64,000 nt of DNA from Rhizophlyctis rosea (lineage: Eukaryota; Chytridiomycota; Chytridiomycetes; Rhizophlyctidales; Rhizophlyctidaceae), in contig JADGJC010000232.1 in NCBI GenBank assembly GCA_027596075.1, positions 1-64,000 of the forward strand, given 5' to 3'. The notes beneath the pieces are model-generated. The model ran no database searches and had not been told where the DNA came from. It saw only the letters and a list, made by a program, of their open reading frames with translations. Shown one piece after another: positions 8,769 to 59,250 of the stretch (position 1 is its first letter; the number at the start of each line of letters is the position of its first letter). Both the position numbers and the translations under genes were made by a program.

Positions 8769-9072
8769 TGTTGCGTAGTCCGTGTATACATGTGGGTTAT
8801 TGGTTTGAATGGCGCGGATGAGGTGGGAAGATCGTGGGAAAGGTCTGAAAGGCTGAAAAGGTGGGTGTGCTCTTAAGATTGCCGTTTTGGGTTTGATTGG
8901 ATGTTAGTCTGAAAATGAGTCCCAAAAATATCCCTCTTTTCACCTTCCTATCCTACAATTACATTTCACTCATTTTGTTACACCCGCATTCTAGCCAACG
9001 AGTACTTTCAATTTTATAAAGCAGTACCGTCTACCGCCCAGCTGGTTCGCCCCCTCTCTCAAAATACTCAGT
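8769..9072. promoter_or_regulatory. short bidirectional promoter ENT / PPR
   Basis: 304 bp separate the start codons of two divergent genes. An AT-rich patch near 9006-9020 includes ATAAAG about 55 bp upstream of the PPR ATG. No other feature seen. Confidence 0.4.
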
Positions 9073-10734
9073 ATGCTTGGGACGGCTAGGTGCACAAGCT
9101 GCTCCGCCGCTCCCATTGCACACATCCTCCTCTCCTCCTCCCGCCAAAATGTCATCCACTACCACCCAACCTCCATCCGTCGGAGCTACTCCTCCTACTT
9201 CAACAAAGCACTAGAAACCTTAACCGAAATACAAGAAAGTTACCCAAACCCGCCCACACAACACTCTTCCAAACCCCGGCAACATCCCCCGAAACCACTA
9301 TCTGACGCCACAGCATTCGCCAGTAACAACACAGCAGAAACATCACCCTCCAGCCAGCAAGATGACGTCCACGCACATGACGAGCACGAAGAATACAAGC
9401 GACAACGTCAGAAACATAACCCGAAAAAGTACTGCCAAAACCCTAAATGGGACGTCGACGACCTAGTAAATAACCTATCCACAACCCTAAAGAACGGAAG
9501 CACTCCCAAATTCGTCATGAAACACTGGATTCGCTGCTCCCGAAACCATGACGCAGTCAGCAAACTAACTCCCACCGAACATATTCTACCCCTCCTCCAA
9601 TCCCTCCTCAACAACCAACAAAGCGTCCGCCTCCCCGTCCTCTGGCGAACCCTCCAAATCCTCGACCGAGCCGGCAAAATCGACCCAAAAATACTCGCCC
9701 ACCTGATTAAGGAAATGCACCACGAGGACGCGTTGAGGCTTTACCACGAATTAGCAAAATGGAAGGTATCCCTCCACCCAGCCGTATGCAACACAATCCT
9801 ACGAAGATGTCTCCTCGTAGGCCGCTTACGTTTCACCGAGCAACTCCTAAAAGAAATGAAAGAACGTGGCTTCACACCAAACGCCGGCACGTATAGCATC
9901 ATGGCCCACGGATGCCTGGAAAAAGGCGAACTCCGACAAGCCCTCCACTACCTAAACGAAGGCGCCCAAAACACCACACCACCCACAATAGAAGACTGGA
10001 ACCGCCTCCTCCTAGTTCACGCCCGCAAAGGCGACGAAGGCAACTGCCAATCCCTCTTCCAACGCATCATGCAAGTTCACGGTGCGGCGGACCAGTACAC
10101 CTATAGTGTTATGATAACGTGCTTGTTAGTTAAACGAGACTGGAAGGGCGCGATAAACGTTTTGGGGATGATGAGACGGAATCTTGGGAGTGAGAAGGAA
10201 GTGGACCAGTCTGTGCATATGAACCAGATTCTTTGTTTCTTGTGTCAGAACAACTTGGTGGATGAAGCTGTGAAGTTTAAAGGGCAATACACAACCCACG
10301 GCGTAAAACTTAACTCCCGCGCCGGGCATGCTCTGATCGACATGTTCGCGAACCGGCGTCAACCGGATGACGCGCAGAAAATCATGGACGAGATGGTGGG
10401 CGCTGGCATTCAACTCGACGGAGCGTGTTGGTGGGCCTTGTTTCGTGCGTATAAGGGTGCGGGGATGGTGAATAAGGCCGAGGAGGTTGTGGAGGAGGCT
10501 TTGAGGCGGAGAGTGGGGATGAAGGTTGGGGAGTTGATTGGGATGGCGGGGGCGCTTTTGGAGGTTGGGAGGTGGAGAGTTGCGGGGAGGGTTTTGGAAC
10601 GGGTTAAGGGGATGGCGGGGGTTAAGAGGCATGTGGTGGAGGGGTTGGAGATGAGAATTAGGAAGTTGGAGGAGGTTGCGAGACGGAATGGGGTTGGTGG
10701 GGTGGGTGGGCCGTCAGGGGAGGTTGTGGTATGA
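9073..10734 (+). CDS. mitochondrial pentatricopeptide repeat (PPR) protein
   Basis: A single exon of 553 residues. The N-terminus is rich in Arg/Ser/Ala with no early acidic residues (MLGTARCTSCSAAPIAHIL, then SSRQ and RRSYSSYF), as in a mitochondrial presequence. A polar linker follows (~60-130). From ~150 onward come tandem 35-residue helical repeats with PPR hallmarks: VSLHPAVCNTILRRCLLVGR, FTPNAGTYSIMAHGCLEKGE, AADQYTYSVMITCLLVKRD, KLNSRAGHALIDMFANRRQ and IQLDGACWWALFRAYKGAG. PPR proteins bind organellar RNA in a sequence-specific way; fungal members act in mitochondrial transcript stability or translation. The particular target is unknown. The last ~60 residues are basic and Gly-rich. 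Confidence 0.9.
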   Translation: MLGTARCTSCSAAPIAHILLSSSRQNVIHYHPTSIRRSYSSYFNKALETLTEIQESYPNPPTQHSSKPRQHPPKPLSDATAFASNNTAETSPSSQQDDVHAHDEHEEYKRQRQKHNPKKYCQNPKWDVDDLVNNLSTTLKNGSTPKFVMKHWIRCSRNHDAVSKLTPTEHILPLLQSLLNNQQSVRLPVLWRTLQILDRAGKIDPKILAHLIKEMHHEDALRLYHELAKWKVSLHPAVCNTILRRCLLVGRLRFTEQLLKEMKERGFTPNAGTYSIMAHGCLEKGELRQALHYLNEGAQNTTPPTIEDWNRLLLVHARKGDEGNCQSLFQRIMQVHGAADQYTYSVMITCLLVKRDWKGAINVLGMMRRNLGSEKEVDQSVHMNQILCFLCQNNLVDEAVKFKGQYTTHGVKLNSRAGHALIDMFANRRQPDDAQKIMDEMVGAGIQLDGACWWALFRAYKGAGMVNKAEEVVEEALRRRVGMKVGELIGMAGALLEVGRWRVAGRVLERVKGMAGVKRHVVEGLEMRIRKLEEVARRNGVGGVGGPSGEVVV

Positions 10735-33373: not shown

Positions 33374-33951
33374 ATTGGTTTGCTGCACCTTAGTCGACTG
33401 TAGCTTTCTCCTTTCCCTTTGCTTCCTTATCGTACATTGCTCATTTCACTTGGACTTTCCCCCTTGTCGTGTTGGTGTTTTGGTGTTTTCTTTCCTTCTC
33501 CCTGCCTACATTTGATTAGATAGTTACAATTTGTTTTGTTTTGCGCATGGCAGCGCCTGTGATGTGCATAGGTACCTTGGCTGTGCCCCAGATTGATTTG
33601 GGTCCCTTGCGACTGGTTATTTACCTCATTTGAACCTCCCCTCTTTTTTCTAGTTACTAGTGTGCTGCGATACGGGTTTCTTAATAGACGTGATTGAGCT
33701 GCAAACCTGATTTTTGTGGTCCGTAATGGGTATGAATCAAATTCATGTGCTCCAATTCCGATCTGTCGCGTTAATCCACTACGCTATGGGAAGTTGGGAG
33801 CGCGTCACTGACTTGGCTTCTCCGCACAAGACTTTTGAACCTCCTCAATTCAATTTCGTTGCTAACTCAAGCTTCGTACTTTCAGAACGATTTATGTCAT
33901 CGCCCTTGTTATATACGTTAGGGTGTGCAAAAACTCTTGCCTTACTCACCT
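33374..33951. other. 3' flank of oxidase gene
   Basis: T-rich 3' flank with no gene. At 33767-33790 it contains a 24-nt inverted copy of the 5' part of the downstream tRNA. Confidence 0.5.
33767..33790 (-). repeat. truncated inverted copy of tRNA-Arg 5' part
   Basis: The minus strand reads CCCATAGCGTAGTGGATTAA then CGCG, identical to the D-arm region of the tRNA at 33952-34025. The flanking bases do not complete a tRNA fold, so it is a fragment, perhaps a degenerate tRNA copy or tRNA-derived element. Confidence 0.6.
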
Positions 33952-34025
33952 GGCCCCATAGCGTAGTGGATTAACGCGTCAGACTTCTAATCTGAAGATC
34001 CTGGGTTCGACCCCCAGTGGGGTCG
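33952..34025 (+). tRNA. tRNA-Arg (anticodon UCU)
   Basis: Full cloverleaf: acceptor GGCCCCA with TGGGGTC (33952-33958 with 34018-34024), a D arm beginning GCG and closing CGC, anticodon stem TCAGA/TCTGA around loop CTTCTAA (anticodon TCT), variable AGATC, and T arm CTGGG-TTCGACC-CCCAG (34001-34017). Discriminator G. No intron. It decodes AGA. Confidence 0.95.
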
Positions 34026-34032
34026 TTAATTG

Positions 34033-36725: not shown

Positions 36726-39309
36726 CTATTTATCCTTCTTGCTATCCTCCTTCAACGTAACCGTCCTATTAATAACATACTTCCCCTTCTCCACATCCGA
36801 ATCCTTATCTACACAGAAATATGCTACCCGAACCGCCTGGAACTTATCCTCAACCTTCAACCCGCGAATCCCAACCTCCACAAACGCATCAGAAATAACC
36901 TGCAACGAATTCGGATCAATATCCGTCATCCACCCTCCCAACTTGCTATCTAACGGGTTCTCGTGCTTAAAGAGGTTGGAGTACACCCGCGCCTCAACCT
37001 TCACAGGCGAGTTGTGCTTGGGTGATTCCGCAACCCATTGGATGAAGGTCTTGGGCTTCTTCGCTGGTGTGGTGCCATTCTCGTACTTGGCTTTGATTTC
37101 GACAATTTTGCCTTGGGCGTCCTTGACGACTTCGGTGGCGGTGATGGGGTAAGGGACGTTGAGGAGGCCGACGCTCTTGCCCGGTGCGAGACGGTAGAAG
37201 TTGGGGTCGTCCACTTCGCGGAAGTCGGAGGCGTCGATGTAGACGGTGCGGGTGAAGGGGATGGTGTGAGTGCCCATGGAGTCGTCGCGTGGTTTGTTGG
37301 CAACGGTGAACTCTTCTACGTGGTCATCGGGGAGGTTGGTGAGAGTGACTTTGAGGGGCTCGAGGATGGCCATGAGGCGGGGAGCGATGTCGTTGAGGTG
37401 GTCGCGGACGTACTTCTCGAGACGGTCGACACGGATGACCGTATTGGCGGTGGTGACTCCGATATCCCGGACGAAGGCGTTGATTGCTTCTGGTGTGAAA
37501 CCACGTCTGCGGACGGCGGGAAGTGTGTACAACCGAGGATCATCCCAACCCGTTACGATCCCTTCATCCACCATCTTGTTCAACTTCCGTTTCGACAGGA
37601 CCGTGTTGGTAAGGTTCAACCGCCCATACTCCCACTGCACCGGCTTGTAGATCTCAAGCGCATCCACCAACCAGTAATACGATTCCCGAGAAAGACGGAA
37701 CTCCGTTGTGCAAAGTGAGTGAGTGATGTCCTCGAACGAATCACACAGACAATGCGTGTAATCGTACGTAGGGTAGATACACCATTGGTCGCCAGTCCGG
37801 TGGTGGGGCGTGTATAGGACACGGTACGCCACCAAATCCCAGAATTGCGGGTTAGGGTTTTGCATGTCCATCTTCATCCTCAAAATCGCCTTCCCTTCCT
37901 CGTACCGACCGTCCTTCATCTTCTGGAATTCTGCCAATGACTCCTCAATGGGCCTATTCCTGTGGCGACACTCCTTCCGTGGACCCCTCTCTTCCCCACC
38001 CCGATCCGCATTCATCTCCTCCGCTGTGCAGTGGCAAACGTACGCCTTATCCCTCTTGATAAGATCGACCGCAAGTTCATACAAGCGCTGGAAGTTGTCC
38101 GACGAATAGGTAACCTTCCAAGGTTCATATCCCAACCATCGCACAGTTTCCAAAATGGACGTGAAATATTTCTCCTCTTCAGCCTCAGGGTTGGTGTCAT
38201 CGTATCGGAGGTAGCAGTGACCATCGAAAGCAGCAGCGTAACCGAAGTTGACATTGATTGCCTTTGCATGCCCGATGTGCAGGAAACCATTCGGCTCTGG
38301 TGGGAAACGTGTCAGCACCTTCCCACCGGTGCGCTTCAGATGCTCCTTCATCAGCTCAGGTTTGATTTGCGGGTTCCCTCCAGGTTTGTGCAGCCGAGCC
38401 AGCTCGCCCTCCGAGATGAACCGAGTGCTCTTTGCCATTTCTGCAATCTTGCCAGGCGCCGCCGTGTCCGCCTCTGTGGTTTCTGCTGCGGCTTTCACTG
38501 GTTTAGCTTCCTTCGGTTCCGCCTTTTTCTATATTGCAGAGTGTTCATAAATCCACATGCGTGAGATCACTAGCGCATTTGCCTACCTTTCCCTTTGCAC
38601 TATCCCGCTCATCCTTGGGCCCCAAAGTTGCAAGAAGTTGTTTATCCAATTCTTCCTTCACAGCTAGCGAGTTTGCCCATTTAAGCTCCGCCCGTAATGT
38701 GCTCAATAAAGACCCTAGCAATTGGTAGCGCTTTTCGAGAAGTTCGTCTTTCCGCGCACCGAGCAGTTCTGATACGGCTCTGATGATTTCCTCCTGAGTG
38801 ATCACAACGCCTGATGGGACGTTCAGTGATCTGCTGGCATCGTGGATTGAATGGACATCACATACCAACACCACAAGATTCGTCGAAAGCGGCATCGTCA
38901 ATCTTTTCGACATTCTCAGCGAACTTGATAGCAGCTAGAGGAAAGGATATCAGCAAGAACTGAGCCGCGTCCTCCCTCAATGGTGCAACAGTACCTGCAA
39001 GCTGCTCGTTGGTCTTCAGTCGTCCACTGACAAGGGCTTTTGCGATGTAGCCAAGGTGAGGAGCGGATTTCGGGGTAGATTCTGAGGCTAATTTATATAG
39101 CAAGGGACCGGCACTAGAAGCGTCTTGCACGGGACCAGCCTGCAGATGCATGAGTTATAGCTTTCAAAGTCCAACTGCACAGAAAGTTGCCCTACCTCAC
39201 GGATAACAGTTTCAAGCTTGGGAGCAAGCTTCTTGTTCTTCAAAGTCTCCTCAGCTTTGGTTTTCGACAAACCGATTGTCTGGAAAAGGGCAGCTAGATC
39301 GTCTGACAT
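36726..39309 (-). CDS. GLN4: glutaminyl-tRNA synthetase
   Basis: A class I aminoacyl-tRNA synthetase charging tRNA-Gln with glutamine in the cytosol. Several small 5' exons encode the eukaryote-specific N-terminal domain: SDDLAALFQTIGLSKTKAEETLKNKKL, then HLGYIAKALVSGRLKTNEQLAG, then VGVVITQEEIIRAVSELL. The large last exon (~36726-38529) holds a Lys/Glu/Ala linker and the catalytic core: TRFPPEPNGFLHIGHAKA (HIGH motif), YLRYDDTNPEAEEEKYF, and VLSKRKLNKMVDEG (the KMSKS-type loop). The C-terminal anticodon-binding domains follow, with EWxxPLN-like variants. GlnRS and GluRS are close relatives; the Asp-Asp-Thr-Asn-Pro and SKRKL strings favour GlnRS. The start is the ATG at 39307-39309, opening the conserved N-terminus. 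The gene is divergent from the Vps39-type gene. Confidence 0.95.
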
Positions 39310-52898: not shown

Positions 52899-53600
52899 TC
52901 AACATCCACCCCCTCCATCCCCCCCACCACCTCCACCATCTCCGCCCCCATCTCCCCCATCTCCCCCATCTCCCCCATCCCCTCCGCTCTTCTTTCTCCT
53001 TTGATTCTCCGCCAACGCCAAAGCCGTAATCACTATCCCCTCAACAACTTGATCACTCAAACCCCTCCCCACAACATCTATCTGACCCCATTTATGCTTC
53101 ACTCCCTTCGCCTTCTCATAATACGCTATCGGATTCCCTTGCCCATCCTCCAACACCAAAGCCCCATGACTCCCAAACTTGCTCCTAGGCTTCCAATACC
53201 AAATCTGCCCACCCGTACCCGGTACCCTCCACTTCTTCGAAAACAGCCCATCCGATTTGATCTCCGTCGCGCCCTGTCCGTCCGTAAACTCGATATCGAT
53301 TTTAGACGAGATGGCGTGAAATTTGACGTTGGCGAGGAGGAACCTGTCGCCTTTGAAGATCTCCATATCGGGTTTGGAGGAGAATGCGCCGTGGAATGTT
53401 GCTGAGAAGGCGATGGTTTTCATATCTGGGAGGAGGACGTAGAGGTTTTTTGGGTGGGTGGAGAGGAAGGTGCCTTTGTCGACGTAGATGTGGAGGGCGA
53501 GGGAGTTGTTGGGTGGGTTGTAGTAGAAGCTGTTGTTCGTCGGGGCGCCGGGGCCCCAGGACATTATGGAGCGATCTTGGGTTTCGTGGGAGGTCGCCAT
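52899..53600 (-). CDS. tubby-C/LURP1-like (DUF6593-like) protein with Gly-Asp tail
   Basis: A single exon of 233 residues. The body (1-205) is a beta-rich domain: PTNNSFYYNPPNNSLALHIY, GAFSSKPDMEIFKGDRFLLA, GGQIWYWKPRSKFGSHGALVL, then EDGQGNPIAYYEKAKG. This resembles small fungal DUF6593/tubby-like proteins, in which substrate is unknown. A C-terminal helix (VEGIVITALALAENQRRKK) precedes a low-complexity Gly-Asp tail, (GGD)n ending GGGC. A helix, a basic cluster and a Gly-rich tail in this order also occur in scramblase/LURP-one-like proteins. The family call is tentative. The sequence is intact. Confidence 0.65.
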   Translation of the reverse strand: MATSHETQDRSIMSWGPGAPTNNSFYYNPPNNSLALHIYVDKGTFLSTHPKNLYVLLPDMKTIAFSATFHGAFSSKPDMEIFKGDRFLLANVKFHAISSKIDIEFTDGQGATEIKSDGLFSKKWRVPGTGGQIWYWKPRSKFGSHGALVLEDGQGNPIAYYEKAKGVKHKWGQIDVVGRGLSDQVVEGIVITALALAENQRRKKSGGDGGDGGDGGDGGGDGGGGGGDGGGGC

Positions 53601-54073
53601 CGTGGGCAGTGTGTAAAAAAATATTGATGTGGCACTCTCGATTGCGGATGGTCTAAGTTAAGTTGGTGTTATCGATAAACTTGGTTTTCAAATATGCGAT
53701 CGTCACTGAGAAAACAGGAATTGTCAAGCAAGCTTTTATAACATTTTGGCATTCGCGGGTTGGGATGATGTGGGGTGGACCCGTTTGGACCACCTGCTTA
53801 TTTATCATCCAAAGCACTCTGGGCTATGCGGGCGATTTTGGCTTTCTGCACATGATGTAGTCCGTCATCGTCTGACGAGGTGACTGTCCCTCCATCCGCC
53901 ACCAGCCAGATGTAAACAAACACAAGCGCTTCAAGCCCCCAAAGGAGGCAAGTTCGCCCTGCCGCAAAGTCATCTTCAGAACCCACATGTGCCCGCCCGC
54001 ATGCCGTTCCCGTAGGTAGCATACCGCACTCTCTTGATTGAGTCCGCTCAATCGCCGTCTTTACATCTCAACT
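53601..54073. promoter_or_regulatory. bidirectional region between DUF6593-like and NLR genes
   Basis: 473 bp between divergent starts; no coding signal. Contains the presumptive promoters of both genes. Confidence 0.4.
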
Positions 54074-57000
54074 ATGTTCCGATGGACGCGTCGGTTCAAT
54101 CTGTGGATTGGGCAAAACGGTGGTTGGTCTGACAGTAGCCAAGGGGCTGCCAAGACCACGGCAGCTGCTTACACCTCTGGCGAAAGCTTCTCCCACAAAG
54201 CGTCGATACCAACTCATGACGATGTTCTTCAAGGAATAACTTCTACACCCCACACGCCGACGAGCCTTCAAACTGCAAAATTGGGACTAGGTACCCCGGC
54301 TATGCCGACAATTGATACCAGTGCGCTCGCTTTACCATCCTATCCTTTAAACACGGATACCTCTCCACAATTATTGCATACTTCCCACAACTCTAAAGAC
54401 TTTGATGTAATGATCAGCTACTGGTACATTGAACGACACTATAATATCCCATCTACCCATAACACTAACAACCCATTTGTTCCAGCTGGGCAAACAAAGA
54501 AGAGGTCATTCGAGTCAAGAACGCGCTGCAGCAAATGACAAGTTATTGCATATGGATCAACGAGCAGCGAATGCCTGAAGTTGGGAACATCTACCAAGGC
54601 ATGTTTGATGGACTCAGCAGAAGCAAAGTTGTTTGCGCCTTTTTGTCCGCTCATTATGAGGTATGTCCAATTCCAAACCATACCAACTGCAAGAATCTCG
54701 CTGATACGCTCGTCATAGAACTCTACGAATTGCTTTCGCGAGCTGTGCTATGCAGCGGATCGCAAACAACCCATCGTTCCTGTCCGGATGGATTATGGTC
54801 CTTTCACTTGGTCACACGTAATCACTGCTGGAAGCTTGTACATCGATATGTCGGACGCGACATTGAACTGGAACCAGACCATGGAACAGCTCATCGCAAA
54901 TATAGAGTCGGCCTTGTCCAAGTGGTCCTCTACCCGTGTCCAAACATCCGCTTCCTCAAATCCCACCACATTACCTCACCCACCTGCCCCATCCATTCCT
55001 TCACTCAAAGCGCTGCTCGCCCCCGCTGACCTGGAGACGATGGAGAACGACATTGATGAAGTGTATCGCAAGCGCCTTCCGGGAACACGGGAATGGCTTT
55101 TGGATGATGTAGAGCGTTGGGTGCACGACGCCAGTTCCCGCTCTGTGTTTTGGTTAGTTGCATCTGCAGGAGCGGGGAAGTCTGTGGTGGCAACGTGCGT
55201 GATAGAAAAGCTACGGTCTCTGTCAATCCTCGGTGGTTTTTTCGTATGCAAGTTTAGTCGTGCGGATCGGAACAGTCCTGCACAATTGATTCGAACTGTA
55301 GCATTTCAACTTGCGGTTGAATACCCTGTTGTAGCGGAATGCATTCAGGACCTTGAAGCTCGGAAGCCCGGTTTCGTAGCTACAGCCAACGTATACCGTG
55401 CCTTTCAGGGCTTGTTGATGGAACCCCTCGCCAAACTGCAATCCACGACACCCAAGAGCTTTGTCATTGTGATAGATGCTCTCGACGAATGTGGAAAGGC
55501 TACCTCACCGGAACGGAAGGAATTGCTTCAGGCGCTGGGGAACGTGGCTCTTCCACCGAATGTAAAGTTGTTCATCACCAGCCGCCCTGAGCCAGATATC
55601 CGTGAGGAGTTGGAATCGGTTGATCCATACGAGATAGTATTAGACGAGGAGCGGAACCGGGCGGATCTTCTACTATATGCTAAAAACCGGGTGAAGCGGA
55701 AGTTCCCAAGAGCAAGTGATGAAGACAACGCAAAACGCGCCGAAGATCTTGTGGAGCAATCACGCGGGCTCTTCATCTGGCTGTATCTGGCATTTGAGGA
55801 ATTGCGAAAGACATCGGATGTCATGGGAACGTTGGCGTTGCTTAGTGATGGGAAAGGAGGTCCGGCGGATCAAGGGAAGGATGAATTGTATTCTCGGACG
55901 CTCGCAACTGCTTTCAATGGGATAGACGATGAAGAAGGGTGGTGTGGGAAATTCAGGGACATCGTTGGGGCTATCATTGCACTTCAAGCCAGTCTAGGGA
56001 GGGAAGCACTCAGCGGTCTCCTCGGGATTCCAGAAGTTTGCATTGACGACACGTTGGCTCGCATTGCTTCCTTACTTTACATTGCGGACGACCAGATCCG
56101 TCTTATCCACAAGTCCTTGGCCGACTTCCTTCTCCATCCAGATCGATGTACAGATAAACGTTTCCAGATAGATTTGAAAGCATGTGAGAGCCGGGTCGCG
56201 AACGGTTGCTTGCGTTCTTTGAATTACGGTCTACGCAATATGTGTCAGTTGGACCCCAGTTTGCTCAATTCGGAAGTCTCGGACCTTGAGGATCGAATGC
56301 TGCAGAATATTCCTCGGCATGTCTTGTATGCTACTATACACTGGATTGACCATTTTTGCACTGCTACGTTGACACCAGAGCTCCTGTCGCAATTTGATCG
56401 ATTTCTGAAGGAGCATGTGTTGAATTGGTTGGAGGTGGTCAGTGTCTTGGGTGCAGTACCGGCGACAACCATAGACTTGCTCAAGTTGGACGATTGGGTG
56501 CTGTCGGATGTGAGGAGTGTACTGGTAAGCCATACCTATTGACTCACTTCCAGCATTCCAGCCTGCTAAAGTCAAATCACAGATCAACACCACGTCATTG
56601 GAGCTCGTTCACGATCTTTCCCGCTTTATCCAAGACTTCGCAGTCCCAATCACTCAGAGCGCACCGCACATTCGCATTTCAGCTGCACCATTCTGCCCTA
56701 CTGAAACCGCCTTATTTCGCATGTATCGACATCACCTAAACGTGGAGGTCAAAGGGCGGGCAGATTTGTATTGGTCCGCATGCGTCCGCACCTTCGAGGG
56801 ACATGAGGATGTGGTCACATGCCTCGCTGTAACCTCGGATGGAAAGGCATTAGCGACTGGATCGCGGGATGGAAGGGCCAAAATTTGGAACCTCCAGGGT
56901 GGAGATCTTGTCCAGGGTTGGGAGAATACCCAGGAGGTTGTATCCATTGCGATCACTGAAGATGGGGCTTGGTCAGTGATTGCTGTCAAGCGCAGCAATG

Positions 57001-58649
57001 ACGTCAAAGGCATTGCGGAGATATTAGATAACCGCCGGGGCAAAGTTGTGTACGTTCTGCGAGATGCTGAAGAGTACTTCGAAAGGGTGGCAATCACATC
57101 AGACGGGCAGGCAGTGATAACGTGCGGTGGAATTTTTGCGAAGGTCTGGGATGCCAGCACTGGCAGCCTCCTGCGCACCTTCGAAAGCCATGTTCTCCGA
57201 AAACCATGGGTGTGCACGTCGGGTCAAGTAACAACGTGGTCTGTGCAGGATATTGATTGGTTGGGGCATGTATGGGATCCGCGAGAGGGGAAAGTCCTGC
57301 ACACTCTTGAAGGCGGGGATGAGTTTAACACTTTCGGGGCACTAACACCAGATTCACGGTACTTGGTGACCATGGCTCACCATTACGCAACATTATGGGA
57401 CACTCAAGTGGGAACGCGCCTGCATCAGCTTGAAGGGCACAGCGATTATGTACGATGTTGTGCAATAAGTGCGGATGGGCGCACAATCGTGACGGGAGCG
57501 GAGAACGGTGTTTTGCTTGTGTGGGATGCGGAGAATGGAAAATCACGGCAAACACTCCGGGGTCACGTAGGCCCAGTACTATCGGCGGTGATGTTCGCGG
57601 AGGGACGTAAGGTCATCACGAGCTCACATGACGGGACCGCGAAAGTTTGGGACTTGCAAATGACCAAGCGTACGCAAGTTTTTGAAGGGCACTCGGCAAC
57701 TGTCCTTTGCTTGGCGGCAACACCAGATGGATGCACCATAGCGACGGGATCATTGGATGGGACTGTACGAATGGGACGGTCGGAATGGCACACTTCGACA
57801 AAATCTTACCTCGAAAAGCATTGCCGATTCAAAAAACTCCTTCTTCAACGAGCGCAGTGAAACTACTGTGGCCCTGACAGCTGATGGCTGGGTGGTGGGA
57901 AGTATTGCGGCGCAAGGCTCAACGACTCTGAGATTGTGGGACACTCGAACGGGAGAGGCATTGGCTGTATGCAACATTGGGGAACACGTCAAACTTCAAA
58001 GCTTGAAATTTGCGATCATGCCCGATGGTCGAAGGGTAGTCATCACCGGGCAAAGTTCCGTCCAGATTTTGGATACCACCACTGGCACCATCCTTTATAG
58101 TCTGCAGCACAGTTTGCACCACTTGTCGACCAGCTTACAATTACTCCACCAATCAGTGAACTCAGCTTTTTCGAGCAGATGGTTTTGACACTTCATTGGG
58201 GCCGAATGATGTGCGACGTTGCAATATTGCTGGATGGACGCACTGTCATCGGCTTAGACGAATATATTGTGATCATATGGGATGCAGAGGAACGCAAAAT
58301 ATTGCAGATTTTGGTTAATGGTGGTTCTCGCGAGAAGCTGGGGATGATTGTTTTAGCCGATGGCATGGAAATCATTATTCACACGTCCAAAAACACAAAA
58401 ATTTGGAAGGGAACACGAAGGGGGACGTCCATATCTTATCGCGAAGCCAGCTCTGATGAGAAGTCGGACTTTGGGTGGGAGGGCACGCCGGTGGATAGGA
58501 ACGGTTGGATTTACGACATTGTGGGCCGTCGAAGGGGTTGGCTGCCTAGTCATGTCAGAGGGAAGATGGGAATGGGACAAGCGGGCATTTTGGCAATCTT
58601 CAACGAGAACCAACGAGCCACGTTTGTCAAGGGCTGGTTTCGAACGTAG
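54074..58649 (+). CDS. TIR-NACHT-WD40 (NLR/STAND-like) protein, with two frame breaks in WD40 region
   Basis: Exons 54074-54423, 54486-54660, 54719-56524, then 56583 onward. After a ~110-residue Ser/Thr-rich leader comes a TIR domain: DFDVMISYCWANKEEV, IRVKNALQQ, CIWINEQRMPE, SRSKVVCAFLSAHYE, NCFRELCYAADRKQPIVPVR. The Glu of FRELC (about residue 183) aligns with the NADase Glu of SARM1-type TIRs. A NACHT domain follows: Walker A ASAGAGKSV (GKS ~328-330), Walker B VIVIDALDEC (~427-433), and FITSRPEP. A winged-helix/helical region holds IRLIHKSLADFLLHPD. From exon 4 come WD40 repeats (FEGHEDVVTCLAVTSDGKAL, LEGHSDYVRCCAISADGR and others). The WD40 frame shifts near 57770 (one extra base) and 58113 (one missing base), both restoring WD-like sequence. 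Role inferred: self/non-self or pathogen sensing. Confidence 0.85.
57765..58116 (+). other. two compensating frame breaks in the NLR WD40 region
   Basis: The frame ending GSLDGTVR must shift +1 near 57770 (AA) to read EWDGRNGTLRQNL; the next frame must shift -1 near the TTT run at 58113-58115 to read APLVDQLTITPP. Typical short introns do not fit: the only GT..AG span at the first site would remove WD-like sequence. Either a mutated receptor or consensus errors. Confidence 0.65.
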
Positions 58650-59250
58650 TTGGTTGGGGTTAATAGGAATGGGACAGTCTATCTTGTGTTTCTCAGTTCG
58701 GCGGCAGTGGGTGGATGTAGCGACTTAAATGCTCAAATGGTGCCGAAAGCTTTGAAGTGTCGCGTAGTCTGCTGAGGGTGACAGATCAGGAGAATTCGGC
58801 TGGACATGCGCAACTTGATGGTGATGAAACGCGCAGTGTGGTGGTAGGGGTTTCGGCATAACAGATGCAGATGGGAGGGAGGGTCGGCAAGGCGGAAGGT
58901 GCTGGTGGGAGCATATAGTGAGTCATGTAGAGTGGAAGAGCCGCGGTCGGAAAATCTGAACCTATTGGGTAAAGTGCTTTCATTACGTTTCATGTAGTCG
59001 GATTTTGTGCTAGTAAGCGTAAATGTTCGGTAATATATCATAGAATGCCAAATGTCATAAATGCTGTCACCATGTTCGTTGTTGCAACACTGACAGGTTG
59101 GTACTTTTGATATATGGTGCGATGGGCTTTTCTAGCTCGAAGCAAAGTGAACGTCCATAATCCTAATTTGATGCAAAGACATGTGCTTCTACATATCCGT
59201 TTCTGCAGAAACACATCATTTACAGGTATTCCTTTCAGTATGGTTGTTCT
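58650..59250. other. convergent spacer
   Basis: 600 bp between the NLR gene (+) and the F-box-like gene (-). No gene seen. Confidence 0.45.

Follow-up and report, generated by a model that had tools for sequence, protein, structure and literature searches.

Does an early-diverging fungus encode a receptor with a TIR domain at its N terminus? TIR is the module that cuts NAD in the immunity of plants, animals and bacteria, and the NACHT-WD40 body is typical of fungal self/non-self receptors. The question is raised by a locus of the soil chytrid Rhizophlyctis rosea (Rhizophlyctidales, Chytridiomycota) in a 64,000-nucleotide stretch of contig JADGJC010000232.1 (here, the window), where a first-pass annotation proposed a single TIR-NACHT-WD40 gene at 54074-58649. 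We searched the host assembly (44.1 Mb in 634 contigs, with the window on contig 149, or C149). The locus probably holds a gene for a receptor of the nucleotide-binding oligomerization domain-like receptor (NLR) type, within the signal transduction ATPases with numerous domains (STAND), in which a TIR effector is set on a fungal NACHT-WD40 body. At the level of sequence, curated profiles, a conserved gene structure, coding constraint and a gene family all support this layout, including the order of its domains and a conserved Glu in the TIR.

Gene model and domain composition

Splicing of four forward-strand exons (54074-54423, 54486-54660, 54719-56524 and 56583-57860) yields an open 1,202-residue protein, with a putative start at the ATG at 54074 that the first-pass annotation had chosen. 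Exon 1 encodes residues 1-111, an N-terminal stretch that no Pfam profile matched, and the first TIR strand, FDVMISY (54401-54421), exon 2 encodes the middle of the TIR (CWANKEEV ... FLSAHYE), and exon 3 encodes the second half of the TIR, a linker, the NACHT and a post-NACHT region. Exon 4 encodes a pre-propeller region and, from about 56781, WD40 repeats that continue until the open frame stops. Introns 1 and 2 are 62 and 58 bp long. Intron 3 (56525-56582) is approximate; a deposited gene model uses another junction there and has a few more residues.

Pfam profiles matched all three of the domains that had been proposed from motifs. Residues 112-234 (54407-54895, introns included) match TIR_2 (PF13676) over the whole profile (positions 1-122 of 122), with an E value of 3.8e-17 in the 1,202-residue protein and of 1.1e-17 (65.0 bits against a cut-off of 28) in its first 504 residues. 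In the same 504 residues, NPHP3_N matches residues 297-464 (55082-55585; E = 4.6e-31, 108.7 bits), and NACHT (PF05729) scores 33.3 bits against a cut-off of 26.7. This NTPase contains a Walker A motif, SAGAGKS (55163-55183), and a Walker B motif, IVIDALDECG (55466-55495), within which lie the GAGKS and DALDEC motifs noted earlier. WD40 repeats follow in the full protein (E = 2.9e-39, 132 bits). The E values of the TIR, NACHT and WD40 matches are too strong for chance. Both parts by which NLR and STAND proteins are recognized are therefore present: an NTPase with Walker A and B, and C-terminal, superstructure-forming WD40 repeats, the series being broken near 57770.

One could suppose that the TIR and the NACHT belong to two neighboring genes that the gene model has fused, as the deposited protein for this locus might suggest. 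That protein (P0001; R. rosea HDV00_004768), which is 100% identical over 70% of a 777-residue query, begins at residue 230 of our spliced model, close to where the TIR match ends; it has a slightly different third intron and the same stop at 57860. However, a single stop-free frame of 607 residues (54719-56542), holding residues 176-777, spans the NACHT and the latter half of the TIR, so the fusion does not depend on the predicted splice alone. The same parts are joined in four other deposited R. rosea proteins (P0002 to P0005, with a 5'-truncated TIR in P0004 and P0005), and a TIR match just upstream of a NACHT recurs across the genome, as described below. We consider two separate genes highly improbable. 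Because HDV00_004768 starts at residue 230, the TIR of the window gene is absent from that public record, an example of how TIR domains can be dropped from public gene models of chytrids.

The splice structure of the TIR is conserved in a paralog, L015, where both TIR introns fall in the same codons, and at the same phase, as in the window. The borders in L015 are TACTG/GTAC ... CAG/CTGGGC and CATTATGAG/GTA ... (slashes mark the intron borders). Our computed splice of L015 is identical to the deposited protein P0002 across 695 residues, and P0002 uses those splices. In the genome search, exon 2 of the window alone was picked up by TIR_2 (C149:54475-54657; 27.1 bits, slightly below the cut-off of 28). 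The front-end exons first proposed were thus correct, in that they give a full TIR_2 once spliced and have introns as in L015. Between the window and L015, the proportions of nonsynonymous and synonymous differences (pN and pS) are 0.181 and 0.815 over 134 codons of the TIR, and 0.255 and 0.832 over 211 codons of the NACHT. Silent sites are saturated, so constraint is evident and no rate can be obtained; the TIR appears, if anything, to be under more constraint than the NACHT.

The WD40 end of the window copy is interrupted

The claim that one continuous gene spans 54074-58649 did not hold. The open frame stops at 57860, and the WD40 homology changes frame: in tblastn comparisons with P0002 and P0004, the first-frame homology reaches 57773, a second frame takes over between 57772 and about 58116, and the stretch 58218-58643 is once more in the first frame. 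The switch at 57765-57773 thus separates the open frame from an out-of-frame remainder (57772-58649) on the same strand, which contains more WD40-like repeats, re-enters the first frame no later than 58218, and ends in a conserved C-terminal tail (GRRRGWLPSHVRG ... RATFVKGW; paralog form GRRxGWLPxHxRG ... FVKGW). The paralog P0002 (1,349 residues) is uninterrupted through this conserved C terminus. An intron at the first switch was considered and rejected: nine frame-shifting GT-AG pairs of 40-140 bases exist there, yet an intron explains the switch poorly because the flanking alignments abut and no repeat residues are lost. At the second switch, 25 such pairs are available. From the sequence, the frame break could reflect a genuine truncation or a mistake in the assembly.

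The window copy may therefore be a truncated or decaying member of its family. It is a distinct, if tentative, possibility that the locus is a pseudogene, once a complete TIR-NACHT-WD40 gene, whose frame changes leave at most a TIR, a NACHT and a partial propeller. The switch near 57770, with homology retained on either side of it and a return to frame by 58218, is what such decay would produce; the deposited model likewise stops at 57860, and in a DNA search of the assembly the segment 57500-58649 matched only itself. Weighing the other way, the exons for the TIR and the NACHT remain open and show constraint relative to L015, an assembly error would give an identical picture, and a truncated NLR may still function.

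At their C termini, P0002 and P0004 carry a DGW ... GWLP pattern that resembles the DGW ... WVP or WLP of other NACHT-WD40 proteins. One loose pattern for this region matched 5 of 52 compared proteins of at least 700 residues (P0002, P0004, P0046, P0077 and P0118).

TIR, not HET, stands before NACHT in the R. rosea genome

Is the window gene a single case? Pfam profiles run against the assembly exon by exon, which makes every count a lower bound, gave 23 matches to TIR_2 (window included), 29 to NPHP3_N and 34 to HET. Twelve of the 23 TIR_2 matches have an NPHP3_N match at most 3 kb downstream on the same strand, 11 of them within 1.5 kb. In contrast, none of the 34 HET matches lies within 3 kb 5' of NPHP3_N, and none is within 5 kb of any of the 29 NPHP3_N matches (Fisher p = 2e-6 for TIR versus HET, with the paralogs not being independent observations). 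One extra TIR-NACHT, on C103, was recognized by eye from its upstream sequence, its TIR half being unscored by Pfam. No TIR_2 match was found within 5 kb of the NACHTs on C75 (at 24985), C290 and C157, a search that would overlook TIRs as weak as the one on C103.

Clear WD40 repeats follow the TIR-NACHT at 8 of the 13 loci (the window, C75, C375, C285, C491, C398, C616 and C9). C301 has a weak WD40 match below the curated cut-off, C31 has in place of WD40 a downstream frame with ZZ zinc fingers that is possibly a separate gene, and at C371 the scanned frames had no Pfam match. The remaining loci, C135 and C103, were examined as short pieces only.

Several arrangements in this genome stand apart from the common one. 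On C285 (L013), the second half of the TIR, the NACHT and the WD40 repeats occupy one 1,926-residue frame in which about 700 residues precede the NACHT, and on C491 (L014; 774-2150) WD40 and then TPR matches share one frame, as either a mixed repeat array or a read-through into a neighboring gene. A second type of TIR-NLR is found on C99 and C10 (L027 and L028), where a TIR frame is followed by NB-ARC and TPR frames. TIR frames are followed by Sel1-repeat frames on C2 and C11 (L018 and L021), and ankyrin repeats and a TIR share a single open frame on C249 (L016; 4706-5404). In a 713-residue frame on C57 (L009; 3957-6095), a strong mid-frame TIR (E = 1.3e-18) is the sole Pfam match at an E value of 0.001; by sequence, this TIR frame had no PDB match at 0.01.

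Relatives in other chytrids

Two homolog searches, one returning the best 120 of 171 matches among 7,998 candidates and the other the best 120 of 220 among 8,000, place TIR-NACHT proteins in further chytrids, and the relatives named here are accordingly a lower bound. Borealophlyctis nickersoniae has two TIR-NACHT proteins (P0006 and P0122) and a third with a TIR and the start of a NACHT (P0123), and a second R. rosea genome, HK097, has one (P0121). Rhizoclosmatium globosum P0031 is a TIR-NACHT with WD40 repeats, its TIR identified by eye and by alignment, as the Pfam row listed for it is incomplete. A TIR-NACHT is also present in Rhizoclosmatium sp. JEL0117 (P0052), and R. hyalinum P0124 has a TIR and the start of a NACHT. 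In Physocladia obscura, a NACHT is present in P0125, whose start looks TIR-like by eye, the remainder of the TIR being absent. A search with the TIR only (P0002 residues 8-145) gave 50 candidates and two matches, P0002 itself and P0003.

A TIR-NACHT-LRR layout in Rhizoclosmatium, suggested by the LRR, TIR and NACHT profile matches of P0052, was rejected. There the F-box-like/LRR part precedes the TIR, and it is probably a gene-model fusion, since the very similar P0124 starts, as judged by eye, at MATGGVKSYN, which is internal to P0052.

The receptor body groups with fungal NACHTs

We next placed the window NACHT in a phylogeny of 45 rows, hand-picked from 253, over 198 columns; the tree includes two long branches and is rooted with an outgroup. 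The window falls in a ten-row set (support 99/90) comprising nine TIR-NACHTs, from R. rosea (one of them from HK097) and Borealophlyctis, and C103, which is labeled in the tree as lacking a TIR despite its TIR half. Three bacterial or metagenomic TIR-NACHTs are separated by a 100/99 branch, and because the window lies on the fungal side of that branch, its receptor body is fungal. This divides an earlier suggestion, that the layout is closer to the STAND systems of animals, plants and bacteria: it holds for the TIR only, as the NACHT groups with chytrid NACHTs.

The 21 NACHT rows from Dikarya form a set (98/90) beside Physocladia (94/80), amid chytrid lineages. The chytrid TIR-NACHTs do not form a single clade, and their distribution takes four changes, at least two of them forced by the starred branches, in a count that scores C103 without a TIR and the uncertain C135 with one and that would fall if C103 were scored as TIR. 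Given its row choice, column number, long branches and rooting, the tree is suggestive only, and the distribution would fit either several gains of a TIR or an old TIR-NACHT with losses.

One might go further and read the chytrid TIR-NACHT-WD40 as the older fungal form, with the HET-NACHT-WD40 receptors of Dikarya built later on the same NACHT body once the TIR had given way to, or evolved into, a HET domain. We regard this as a doubtful idea; if true, it would link fungal incompatibility to TIR/NADase immunity by descent and not by analogy. Three papers describe HET as a remote relative of TIR (PMC4986451, PMC9815663, PMC12881547). Counting against a TIR-before-HET descent, no TIR-HET kinship was detected when a profile of chytrid TIRs (alignment A3) was compared with the HET-NACHT protein P0018 (probability 0.2%, E = 0.31), and the resulting alignment fell outside any nameable part of HET. 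R. rosea itself carries at least 34 HET matches, which means that a simple later replacement of TIR by HET does not describe its lineage. A chytrid with TIR, not HET, before NACHT gives a way to test whether the non-self receptors of fungi stem from NADase receptors of the TIR type.

A conserved Glu and the possible function of the TIR

The first-pass annotation had also pointed to a Glu of the NADase type in the TIR (FRELC). This residue, the putative catalytic E183 (NCFREL; 54740-54742), lies in an invariant alignment column: 8 of 8 rows in alignment A2 and 9 of 9 in A3, both including the window, and 13 of 13 in A4, which does not include it. These row sets overlap and their rows were chosen as relatives, three of the A4 rows being bacterial or metagenomic. 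At an E value of 0.01 or better, the A3 profile matched 33 distinct PDB sequences, including tir-1 and AbTIR, with SARM1 near the threshold. Among its matches were Cat1 (1.4e-11) and the plant TIR-NB-ARC NLRs Roq1 (1e-6) and RPS4 (2.4e-6), and in five alignments (one to Cat1 and two each to Roq1 and RPS4) the E183 column falls on the Glu of WCWDEL in Cat1, WCLEEL in Roq1 and WCVREL in RPS4. This Glu is thus conserved in the rows compared and in register with a Glu of RPS4, Roq1 and Cat1. In such TIR proteins, the Glu at this place lies in helix C and serves NAD+ cleavage, a role that E183 may share.

By analogy with NLRs, the window receptor may work as an NAD-depleting immune or death receptor. 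Its WD40 propeller would recognize a ligand or an altered host protein, upon which the NACHT would exchange nucleotide and oligomerize. The TIRs so clustered could together make up a composite active site, with E183 aiding the cleavage of NAD+, and the resulting signal nucleotides or loss of NAD would lead to cell death or defense.

Three points weigh against this picture. The break in the WD40 frame may leave the window copy unable to work as a full receptor. A fold comparison of the AlphaFold model of P0003 (906 residues; mean predicted local distance difference test score of 75.9), in which the TIR region appears as alternating strands and helices, listed 50 rows, with WD40 proteins at the head and WD40 chains filling the list. 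Finally, the sequence of the TIR would be compatible with either an enzyme or a homotypic adaptor. An adaptor without enzymatic activity would recruit other TIR proteins of the same genome, and R. rosea has many candidates among its 23 TIR matches, the TIR-Sel1, ankyrin-TIR and TIR-NB-ARC-TPR layouts included. Against such an adaptor are the invariance of the Glu in the compared rows, profile matches to Cat1 and to the TIRs of plant NLRs that extend through this Glu, and the NADase role of this Glu in such proteins. We therefore think an adaptor unlikely and favor a TIR that acts as the effector of the receptor. A search with PADLOC gave a single weak match, to PDC-S66 (E = 5e-4).

Comparison with known receptors

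Among fungal receptors, the closest in layout are the HNWD proteins of Podospora (HET-E, HET-D and HET-R; HET-NACHT-WD40), which share with the window gene the order of effector, NACHT and WD40. They differ in that HNWD has HET and the window gene has TIR_2 instead, a distinction drawn from domain content. HET (PF06985) was not among the nine Pfam families matched at an E value of 10 or better in the first 504 residues, in a search whose filters remove most matches above about 0.1. HET stands beside NACHT in HNWD, whereas 0 of 34 HET matches are near a NACHT in R. rosea. The WD40 repeats of HNWD are strongly alike, by concerted evolution, whereas tandem WD repeats of near identity are absent from the DNA of the window gene. 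Repeats of the HNWD kind were ruled out because Tandem Repeats Finder, which usually misses copies less than about 70% alike, returned no rows for the window (54000-59000), L010, L015 or L024.

In plant NLRs, as in the window gene, the TIR stands ahead of a STAND NTPase; Roq1 and RPS4 differ from it in having NB-ARC and LRR in place of NACHT and WD40. The bacterial TIR-NACHT-TPR proteins P0119 (Oceanidesulfovibrio) and P0088 likewise have a TIR ahead of an NPHP3_N-type NTPase, but have TPR in place of WD40 and a NACHT from across the 100/99 branch. In animals, amphioxus TIR-NACHT and TIR-NB-ARC-WD40 genes are described in one paper (PMC2575513), and by that description TIR is joined there to NACHT, or to NB-ARC and WD40.

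TIR had been thought to be seldom reported in fungal NLRs. That is fair, though the combination is already in print: one clause in a published account notes TIR in the NLRs of Chytridiomycota (PMC9815663). A review of plant TIRs credits fungi with a TIR-like HET in place of TIR (PMC9153377). The chytrid clause, like the window gene, concerns an N-terminal TIR in a fungal NLR. The clause itself names no gene, species or repeat type; here we provide a family, its gene structure and an error in its annotation. Our searches of the open-licence PMC literature turned up no account that describes a chytrid TIR-NACHT family or its WD40 partner, or that contrasts TIR with HET within one genome. The window gene adds a member to the kind that has been reported.

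Neighborhood of the gene

Of the 23 long open frames in the window, 10 were scanned with Pfam along with the receptor exons. The surroundings include ordinary neighbors: a PPR protein (8995-10731, forward strand), a tRNA-Arg (33951-34026, forward strand) and a class I tRNA synthetase of the E/Q type (36729-38528, reverse strand). Adjoining the receptor gene, a reverse-strand frame at 52902-53657 has a sub-threshold match to DUF6593 (23.4 bits against 27).

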